Shown: positions 27,439 through 35,919 of the stretch, one piece after another | Numbering within the stretch: position 1 is the first letter of the stretch | Layout of the letters: each line of letters begins with the position of its first letter | Origin: Gammaproteobacteria bacterium | GTDB taxonomy: Bacteria; Pseudomonadota; Gammaproteobacteria; Steroidobacterales; Foliamicaceae | NCBI GenBank assembly: GCA_007571315.1 | Contig: RKRP01000156.1 | Span: 1 to 39,016, forward strand | DNA length: 39,016 bases | Reading direction: 5' to 3' | Translations under genes and position numbers: made by a program | The notes under the pieces: model-generated | Told to the model about the DNA's origin: nothing | The model's input: only the letters and a program-made list of their open reading frames with translations | The model's database searches: none

Positions 27439-28238
27439 TCCGAAGGCGCCATTACGGAGGAAAGATCGTACATTCCGGGCGGTTGCCCGGCCAGCCAGCG
27501 CGCGGCCCGCAAGGCCCCGGCGGCGAACACGCCCCGGCTCAAACTCTGGTGGCGCAATTCGAGCGCCTCGTCGTTGCCAGCCAGGATTACCGAATGATTG
27601 CCGGAAAACCCGCCGCCGCGCACGGCGCTGAACCCGATCGCTCCCTTCCGGCGGGCGCCCGTTTGGCCGTGGCGCTGAAACTCCGCAACGTCCGCAAACT
27701 CCCGGCCGCGCGCCGCCGCCGCCGCGCGGCCCAGCTGCAGCGCGGTTCCCGAGGGGGCATCGGCCTTGCCGCGATGGTGAATGTCGATGATCTCCAGGTC
27801 GTAATCCTCTCCCAGGCGTTGCGCGGCAATGCGCAGCAACTCATTGAGCACGAACACGCCCAGGCTCATGTTGCTGGCCTGAAGCACTGCCGTCTGGCGC
27901 GAGGCGCGCTCCAGGGCGGCCTGACCTTTGGCGGCAATCCCGGTTACGCCCTCCACCAGGGCGCAGCCGGCCTCCGCGCAGGCCGCGGCGATGCTGGCGG
28001 TAACCGCCGGCGCGGAAAAATCCACGGCCACATCCGCTCCGGCGATGCTTTCCTCGGGGGAGCTCGTTACCCGCGCGCCGGCTTCGGGAAGATTCGCAGC
28101 CAAGCCTGCATCCTGGCCGATCCAGGGGTCGTCCGGCGCCGCCAGGGCGCCGGTCAACTCAAGGTCGGCAGCGGATGCCACCCGCGCCAGCAACTCCCGT
28201 CCCATGCGGCCGCTGGCGCCCAGCAGGCTGATTTTCAT
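27435..28238 (-). CDS. dapB: 4-hydroxy-tetrahydrodipicolinate reductase
   Basis: [38 protein letters not shown]. Confidence 0.95.
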
Positions 28239-29365
28239 GAGCTTTTGCGCTCCGATTCGGCGGGCTGGCTGGCGGCCCAGTCGCGCCATTTGGCGGCGCG
28301 CGGATGCTGCCGGTCGCCGGCGCGGCCACTCGCGCGAGAGAACTCTTCAAGCAGGCGCCGCTGCTTGCGGCTCAAACCCACCGGAGTTTCCACTTCGATG
28401 TGGCAGTACAGGTCGCCGCTGCGCCCCCCCCGAGCCGGCTTCACCCCGCGGCCGCGCAGGCGGAAGGTGTGCCCGGACTGCGTGCCTGAAGGCACCTTCA
28501 GTTTTACCGGGCCGGTCAACGTGGGCAACTCCACTTCTCCCCCCAAAGCTGCGGTGGCAAAGCTTACTGGAAAGCGGCAATGCAGGTTGGCGCCCTCGCG
28601 CTCGTACAGGGGGTGCGCGCGCACCTGCATTTCCACAATCAGGTCGCCGGGCGGGCCGCCGCGCGGGCCGGCGTTTCCTTTTCCGCGAATCCGCGAGCGA
28701 TCGCCGGTATCGACTCCCGGCGGCACTTTCAGCGATATTTCCTCAGTCTTGCGAACGGCGCCTTTGCCGGAACAGTCCGCGCAGGGGCTGGAAACCACCC
28801 GCCCTTCGCCGCCGCAAGCGCCGCAGGTTTGGCTTATGGCGAAAACGCCCTGACGGATCTGCGTTTGGCCGCTGCCGCCGCAACGCCCGCAGGTGCTGGT
28901 TCCGGTGCCCGGCCGGGCACCCGACCCGGAGCAGGTGGAGCAGGCCGCGGCGCGCGGGACCGTAATGCGCACCGTATCGCCGAAGATGGCTTGGGTGAAG
29001 CCGATCTCCAGCCGGTAGCGCAGGTTGGCGCCCTGGCGCGGCTGGCCACCCCCGCCCCGCCGGGATCCGAAAACTTCGCCGAAAATGTCGCCGAATATGC
29101 TGCTGAAGGGATCGCCCCCCGCAGAACCGCTGCTGGCATCCACTCCGGCATGGCCGAACTGATCGTAGGCGCCGCGCTTTTCGGCATTGCTGAGAACCTC
29201 GTAGGCGCGCTGAACCTCCCTGAAGCGGTTGGCGGCCTCCTCGCTCTGGTTGGGGTTGCGGTCCGGGTGGTAGCGCATGGCGAGACGGCGGTACGCCTTC
29301 TTGACATCCGCATCCGAGGCGTTGTGGTCCACGCCCAGGACCTCGTAGTAGTCCCGCTCCGCCAT
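28235..29365 (-). CDS. dnaJ: Chaperone protein DnaJ
   Basis: J-domain with HPD, four CxxCxGxG zinc motifs; ATG at 29365. Confidence 0.95.
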
Positions 29366-29374
29366 CCAACTATG

Positions 29375-29528
29375 GCGCTTGCTTGCCGCCTGCTTGCTGC
29401 CCCCTTCTTCCGGGAGCGCTGGAGTGCGCGCCAATAGCGGGGCGCATACGGGTGCCGGAATGAGCTACAGGGATGTATTCATGCGTCTCCCGGGAGGAGG
29501 GGGCAGCAAGCAGGCGGCAAGCAGGCGC
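29375..29528. repeat. Long hairpin element (copy A) in the dnaK-dnaJ spacer
   Basis: Arms 29375-29404 and 29499-29528 complementary over 30 bp with one mismatch, continuing imperfectly inward (29405-29416 / 29487-29498); core shared with 35752-35919. Confidence 0.85.
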
Positions 29529-29566: not shown

Positions 29567-31501
<1,935 letters not shown>

Positions 31502-35424: not shown

Positions 35425-35748
35425 ATGAAGCATTGTTCCCTGGCAGCCCGAAACTTGGCCCTGGCGGCGGTCGCCTGCGCCGTTCTGGCGGGTTGCGTTT
35501 ACAAGGTTCGCGTTTTCCAAGGCTCCATCGTTGATCCCGGCGACCTCGAGAAGGTGGAAATCGGCATGACCCGGGAGCAGGTCGCGTATGTGCTCGGAAC
35601 ACCCACGGTAAACGATCCCTTCCACGCCAACCGCTGGGACTACGTGTTCACCGACGGAACCCTGCAAGGGGAGCGGCGGCTGGTGGTGGTCCGCTTTTCC
35701 GAGGAGGGAGTGAGCGCCATCGAAACCATGGGCGCGCCCGGCAACTGA
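35425..35748 (+). CDS. bamE: Outer membrane protein assembly factor BamE (SmpA/OmlA)
   Basis: Lipobox VLAGC; VYKVRVFQGSIVDPGDLEKVEIGMTREQVAYVLGTPTVNDPFHANRWDYVF. Confidence 0.92.
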   Translation: MKHCSLAARNLALAAVACAVLAGCVYKVRVFQGSIVDPGDLEKVEIGMTREQVAYVLGTPTVNDPFHANRWDYVFTDGTLQGERRLVVVRFSEEGVSAIETMGAPGN

Positions 35749-35751
35749 AGG

Positions 35752-35919
35752 AGGCCGTTTCGATTCCGCCTCTTTGCGCGCCTCTCTCTTTCGGGAGACG
35801 CATTAATACATCCCTGGAGCTTGGTTCCGCATCCCTGCGCGCCCAGCTCAAGCGGTTGGCGCGCGCTCCGGCACTCCCGGAGGAAGGGGGCGAAGAGCAA
35901 GTCGGAATCGAAACGGCCT
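35752..35919. repeat. Long hairpin element (copy B) between convergent bamE and rnfH
   Basis: Perfect 17-bp outer arms aggccgtttcgattccg (35752-35768) / cggaatcgaaacggcct (35903-35919); core cgggagacgcattaatacatccctggagct...ggcgcgcgctccggcactcccggaggaagggggc shared with copy A. Confidence 0.85.

Follow-up and report, generated by a model that had tools for sequence, protein, structure and literature searches.

Two Rfam families come closest to the hairpin described here. TwoAYGGAY (RF01731; Weinberg et al. 2010, PMC2864571) is on record in gamma-proteobacteria and Clostridiales; it likewise has two GGA-loop hairpins, enclosed by an outer stem of low sequence conservation, and CsrA binding has been proposed for it from the same GGA motif (PMC4333381). 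Ysr224 (RF02770) is a temperature-responsive Yersinia sRNA ranked among the most prevalent bacterial sRNAs (PMC9029176). The CsrA-sequestering sRNAs of the CsrB/RsmZ type also carry A-N-GGA-N loops in short hairpins, paired to suit the CsrA dimer; the SELEX consensus of CsrA is RUACARGGAUGU, with GGA in a six-base loop on a weak stem (PMC7652899). Palindromes scattered through intergenic DNA at the 3' ends of genes are familiar as REP/BIME sequences with RAYT transposases, and the double-hairpin elements of fungal and sponge mitochondria (PMC2800124), compared here by kind only, are repeated mobile intergenic hairpins that are unrelated in sequence and host. An old question is how extended stems stay perfectly paired as their sequence changes over time, and template switching in replication has been proposed as a maker and keeper of stems that leaves paired stem changes and loop inversions (PMC8794818).

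The window analysed here, a stretch of 39,016 nucleotides of a gammaproteobacterial genome (contig RKRP01000156.1), contains two copies of a dispersed hairpin element (Table 1). An earlier note on this DNA had placed two copies with a common core at these positions, and its reading holds: the core GGGAGACGCATKAATACATCCCTG is present with 0 mismatches at 35793-35816 (+) and 29468-29491 (-), 100 shuffles produced no match, and a search of the window found no third copy. We call the strand read in that note the first strand and its reverse the GGA strand. Copy B has long, nearly perfect arms and a fold far better than shuffles (z -12.1). Copy A is degenerate, with 17 perfect outer base pairs, mismatched inner arms and a fold barely better than shuffles (z -1.4), and looks like a mosaic or an element with a copied-over end, because its right side mirrors the left-end motif TTCGATTCCG where other copies carry GGCTACGG; its inner arms are mutually unrelated, and it is probably a recombinant of two opposite copies, judging from this arrangement.

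Table 1. Features of the two element copies and the adjoining genes in the window.
Feature	Position	Strand	Remarks
Element copy A	35752..35919	+ (first strand); GGA strand -	Between bamE and convergent rnfH-like gene
Copy A, outer left arm AGGCCGTTTCGATTCCG	35752..35768	+	Includes the family's usual left-end motif TTCGATTCCG
Copy A, outer right arm CGGAATCGAAACGGCCT	35903..35919	+	Perfect complement of 35752-35768
Copy A, GGGAG	35793..35797	+	5' side of constant basal stem; partner CTCCC 35874-35878
Copy A, inner hairpin HP1	35807..35818	-	TACATCCCTGGA on +; loop AGGGAT on -; stem partly degenerate
Copy A, inner hairpin HP2	35828..35839	-	CGCATCCCTGCG on +; CGCA-GGGA-TGCG on -
Element copy B	29375..29528	- (first strand); GGA strand +	Between dnaK and dnaJ
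Copy B, GGGAG of basal stem	29487..29491	-	Partner CTCCC 29412-29416
Copy B, HP1	29466..29477	+	TACAGGGATGTA on +; equals CsrA SELEX consensus RUACARGGAUGU positions 2-12 plus one base
Copy B, long HP2 variant	29417..29458	-	Lacks a GGA loop
dnaJ	28238..29365	-	
dnaK (Hsp70)	29570..31501	-	
bamE	35425..35745	+	

A genome search with the core, as the earlier note had proposed, was productive: a 112-nt query gave 52 matches in the element's own genome (2.2 Mb, 204 contigs), most with E<1e-6. A covariance model matched all 9 of the 9 genus genomes at 43 to 149 matches each, which are rough counts, given that at most 150 candidates were scored and that a palindrome may match on both strands; the E-values of the model are approximate. 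The typical element is a hairpin of roughly 115 bases, in which a conserved core of ~58-82 nt is enclosed by arms of ~25 bp in most copies. Its genus consensus on the first strand begins GCGCTTCGATTCCGCC-(variable arm)-CCCTTCTTCC-GGGAG-ACGCATGAA-(TACA TCCC TGTA) and continues GCTTGCTCC-(GGCA TCCC TGCC)-TCCAATA-CTCCC-GGAAGAAGGG-(complementary arm)-GGCTACGG; a longer form carries GTGCGCGCCAAGCTATTGGCGCGCAC in place of the second inner hairpin. Among 201 extracted copies, arm length is mostly 20-29 bp; in relatives, pairing stops abruptly near position 25, and arms in the own genome are looser, some exceeding 40 bp. The copies inspected by sequence show no T-run 3' of the stem; together with a stem of at least 25 bp and a 58-82 nt interior, this does not fit an intrinsic terminator.

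Several structural variants accompany the typical form. Copies L248, L261 and L280, from named genomes, carry additional small hairpins inside HP2, several of them with GGA loops; it looks as though the element were growing by insertion of its own parts. In the own genome, copy L025 (contig C47:1-151) is a perfect 120-nt palindrome that mirrors the element's own core; it sits at a contig end, so either misassembly or a fold-back event may explain it. Contigs C134, C5, C63, C89, C2, C109 and C119 of G000 carry copies in close pairs, head-to-head or tandem and ~100-200 bp apart, resembling BIME clusters. A sister family of dispersed hairpins with a different core, GGGAGTCGCCATCCTGGCTCGATTCTCGCTGTCCTTGCTCCAACGCTCCC, and arms such as GCCTCTTTGTGTGCATTCC occurs at L149:915-1014, L194 and L102 (G007, G003, G006); its reverse strand reads GCC-AGGA-TGGC, likewise with a GGA loop. 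Shorter (104-105 nt) and weaker covariance-model matches may be a form related to this sister family.

The arms of a copy are 97-100% complementary to each other although their sequence is copy-specific. Identity between copies falls to 0.29-0.5 at arm positions 14-22, and within the hairpin, per-position identity is 0.7-0.97 over positions 1-24 in the own genome, while most positions in relatives reach 0.95-1.00; the 201 extracted copies contain 135 mismatches in 5064 arm positions. In an alignment of 27 copies (945 cells), 96.9% of cells are paired, both sides have changed in 24 of 27 outer-stem pairs, wobble pairs are few and the inner hairpins covary too; the covariation score of 0.648 was reached by 0 of 500 shuffles, against 0.14-0.20 for slid-structure controls. 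A set of 68 copies, from the scanned named records and related ones, behaves alike, with arms 0.25-0.55 identical between copies and 0.82-1.00 paired within them (positions 1-21). The constant terminal inverted repeats of an ordinary MITE are lacking, as the arms differ between copies. The constant core within variable, self-complementary stems that the earlier note described thus extends across the class, distant copies again having arbitrary but paired arms. Its statement that arms are copy-specific and self-complementary applies to nearly all copies, but they are not wholly unrelated: the arms of different copies form a graded series with stepwise differences, and their innermost ~13 bp are partly conserved (CCCCTTCTTCC).

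Orthologous sites in five close relatives (92-95% identity over syntenic DNA) reveal how the arms change. At the dnaK-dnaJ site, four close relatives carry the same element, in which one arm pair is C-G in two and T-A in two and arms and core are otherwise unchanged. In the element upstream of bamE, exactly two compensated pairs separate G003 from G006; G001 and G008 have no element there, and G007 has a mosaic in which the left half derives from another copy. Among 50 same-orientation ortholog pairs from close species, 35 are the same element and 15 have wholly different arms and core. The 35 same-element pairs differ by 0-6 paired changes with the core almost unchanged, and their 770 arm pairs include 74 compensated and 18 uncompensated changes, with ~3 compensated changes expected by chance; ordinary hairpins in the same DNA, few and short, gave 0 compensated and 38 uncompensated changes. 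The pair-substitution rate of 9.6% equals the per-site divergence of the near flanks (9.6%; 6.1% over 40-400 bp), and the core diverges by 2.3%. A constant core thus lies in a ~25-bp stem of free sequence whose pairs are replaced together at the neutral rate.

Changes on a larger scale occur at the same sites. In the 15 replaced ortholog pairs the arms are again almost perfectly paired, and replacement is seen at sites with flanks 90-100% identical. A further 30 ortholog pairs are in opposite orientation; G003_L135 and G008_L211 show a clean inversion, in which core and inner arm are flipped and flanks and outer arms stay the same. The core is therefore inverted in place at some sites, and whole elements are present, absent or replaced between close species. 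The paired changes, at a rate equal to that of the flanks around a slower core, fit templated correction at the DNA level (template switching or quasipalindrome repair), together with core inversion in place and ectopic replacement, and ectopic conversion clearly adds to arm change. The suggestion in the earlier note that arms are remade after insertion comes close, in that arms drift in pairs, are sometimes replaced wholesale and enclose cores that flip in place, but the arms are inherited first.

Site comparisons between relatives fell into 144 filled, 55 empty and 6 partial cases. The arms and about 15-25 bp on each side appear and vanish together with the core, and empty sites in relatives have no short hairpin with the arm sequence. 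An unsystematic look at the empty/filled comparisons showed no obvious target duplication. With gene strands taken from a simple codon model and orthologs kept in, copies near gene ends number 55 between convergent, 8 between divergent and 94 between tandem genes; in tandem pairs the element strand runs with the genes in 54 cases and against them in 40 (p=0.18, not significant). A cis role in mRNA is weakened by this absence of strand bias relative to genes. The transposase search raised in the earlier note came back empty for one class of enzyme, the Y1_Tnp (PF01797)/RAYT transposase, which was found in 0 of 9 genus genomes with positive controls detected.

The two strands of the element are not equivalent. 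Arm mismatches on the first strand are A.C in 35 cases and G.T in 12 in the genus, and 50 and 11 in the distant set; these A.C mismatches correspond to G.T (G.U) wobbles on the GGA strand. Because of this asymmetry, the strand that folds, as RNA or single-stranded DNA, is probably the reverse of the first strand; strand-biased C-to-T mutation or a single-stranded DNA intermediate could alternatively produce the wobble asymmetry. The idea that the stems have no G-U pairs and hence are kept purely at the DNA level was dropped once the mismatches proved strand-asymmetric.

On the GGA strand, the inner hairpins read UACA-GGGA-UGUA and GGCA-GGGA-UGCC, or CCCA-UGGA-UGGG and GGCA-UGGA-UGCC; their loops have the invariant form A, N, GGA, N, and their stems vary and covary. 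Two A-(N)GGA-N hairpins are present on this strand in 88 of the 122 distinct genus cores, one in 31 and none in 3; the opposite strand has any such hairpin in 0 of 122, and 0.4% of shuffles have two. Paired GGA loops are spaced 21-26 nt apart. Two GGA hairpins also occur in 15 of 19 distant copies found by the covariance model; two further copies were scanned on the wrong strand. Genus cores conform to the sequence rule for CsrA, an A-N-GGA-N in a hairpin loop with sites usually paired (PMC7652899, PMC4333381). Minimum-energy RNA folding of a typical copy gives the outer stem together with HP2, and an alternative takes the place of HP1. CsrA is present in 47 of 51 carrier genomes and 269 of 318 non-carriers, which is no useful association, and four carrier genomes have no detected CsrA.

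We consider it rather probable that this is a dispersed non-coding hairpin element, probably mobile, with DNA-templated stem upkeep and a core selected as a CsrA-type site. Arm complementarity would be upheld mainly by template switching or quasipalindrome correction on an extruded hairpin, whereby a mutation in one arm is copied into the other, helped by ectopic gene conversion between copies. Such correction is a mutation process rather than an element, and its published account deals mostly with stems of rRNA and microRNA (PMC8794818). It predicts that stems change in pairs, that they are perfect and that loops invert, and each of these is present here. Ordinary compensatory evolution, in which a selected RNA or DNA stem changes in two independent steps with no special mutation process, seems unlikely to us. 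The fixed arm length and the strand-biased tolerance of wobbles indicate that the fold matters, and uncompensated intermediates exist (18 of 770 pairs); however, one-step copying from arm to arm predicts a neutral pair rate, two steps through harmful intermediates should be slower than neutral, the observed rate is faster than such intermediates would lead one to expect, and many arms are perfect over at least 25 bp with few wobble pairs. Strong selection for pairing could account for some of the paired changes. That arm differences arise mainly from overwriting by other copies, through ectopic conversion or repeated insertion at one site, and not from drift is somewhat unlikely: the 15 of 50 pairs replaced between flanks 90-100% identical and the half-replaced mosaic in G007 speak for it, but it leaves unexplained the other 35 pairs, with their few paired changes around a near-constant core, and the graded series among arms.

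In the preferred reading the element would be moved in trans by some enzyme. A rival that we take seriously without holding it probable is a transposon-type palindrome of REP- or MITE-like kind, whose hairpins serve only its mobility and whose GGA loops are single-stranded DNA recognition hairpins of some enzyme with CsrA irrelevant. Presence and absence at orthologous sites (55 empty and 144 filled comparisons), a REP-like position at gene 3' ends (convergent 55 versus divergent 8), a strand asymmetry suited to a single-stranded DNA intermediate and an unbiased gene orientation all agree with it; the lack of Y1_Tnp/RAYT in the genus and of a clear target duplication do not, and loop bases that are invariant exactly at A and GGA above free stems are the CsrA rule. 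The element differs from REP/BIME further in its longer stem of free sequence and its two inner hairpins. The earlier note's proposal, insertion of the core into the loops of hairpins or terminators already in place, is hardly credible: elements do sit just past genes, like terminators, but the intact short hairpin it foresaw at empty sites appears in none of the empty/filled comparisons, arms are gained and lost only along with the core, their length is fixed at ~25 bp across families and no T-run follows the stem. Since empty sites are free of such hairpins, the core did not enter existing ones.

Under the preferred reading of a DNA-templated hairpin with a CsrA-type core, selection would act on the core, with reverse-strand transcripts probably binding a CsrA/RsmA dimer through one or two A-N-GGA-N loops and acting either as decoys or as CsrA sites in 3' UTRs. 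Against the CsrA part stand the failure of CsrA presence to track the element, the annotation of Ysr224 on the opposite strand and the minimum-energy fold that lacks HP1. The broader proposal, that mobile CsrA/RsmA-binding hairpins have spread across gammaproteobacteria to tens of copies per genome as 3'-end sites or a distributed sponge, with stems kept by arm-to-arm copying and not by compensatory selection in two steps, is a tentative one that we judge doubtful. CsrA binding is the most testable predicted function of the family. Compared with CsrB/RsmZ-type sRNAs, each element offers one or two sites, occurs in numerous scattered copies and is closed by a long stem. Should CsrA bind its loops, a repeat that may be swelling Rfam counts (Ysr224, TwoAYGGAY) would be a dispersed regulatory element of a major global regulator, to be taken into account in mapping the Csr/Rsm regulons of genera such as Marinobacter, Microbulbifer, Rheinheimera and Pseudomonas and of their relatives. 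The natural copies run to hundreds and include orthologs at several divergences, so that paired changes could be counted and found at the neutral single-site rate; few natural cases show so clearly how pairing is maintained in DNA hairpins.

The hairpin family is a repeat related to TwoAYGGAY and Ysr224, and concerted arm evolution is its striking part. At gathering score, Rfam gave no match in the window, Ysr224 included, and a permissive Rfam search of eight loci returned only weak microRNA-type matches to plain long hairpins. The TwoAYGGAY model aligns full-length to elements on the GGA strand at scores below its gathering score of 43 bits, the best being 40.0 in the genus (0 of 9 genomes above) and 39.7 and 38.0 in distant loci. 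Unlike TwoAYGGAY, the element has loops AGGGAT as often as AUGGAU; with U or G as second loop base in genus elements, AYGGAY fits only part of them. The published TwoAYGGAY descriptions that we examined contain no high copy number, concerted arms or inversion. The Ysr224 model scores 133.9 bits (cut-off 70) at a Yersinia similis plasmid copy (L355) and at most 31.6 at the other loci tested; Ysr224 is single-copy in that Yersinia plasmid and is annotated on the strand opposite to the GGA strand. Its high prevalence rank may reflect the dispersed hairpin repeat, not one conserved gene. Publications on palindromes in gammaproteobacteria, and on CsrA in connection with repeats, held no account of this family, and a literature search by element sequence words gave chance primer matches only.

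Across the class, the covariance model matches 51 of 369 genomes, in 44 of 271 genera. In a pattern scan, the named records among the matches listed are proteobacterial, alongside many MAGs, and the genera among the matches listed include Marinobacter, Microbulbifer, Rheinheimera, Marinimicrobium, Pseudomonas/Halopseudomonas, Luteimonas, Oceanimonas and Sedimenticola. A phage collection gave no element match. Among 5426 E. coli genomes, 5 have similar copies, which in 4 cases lie on plasmids. The plasmid search gave one match, a Yersinia plasmid. On the Y. similis plasmid (L355:1451-1927), which is conjugative, the element (Ysr224) lies directly before a ryfA RNA gene.
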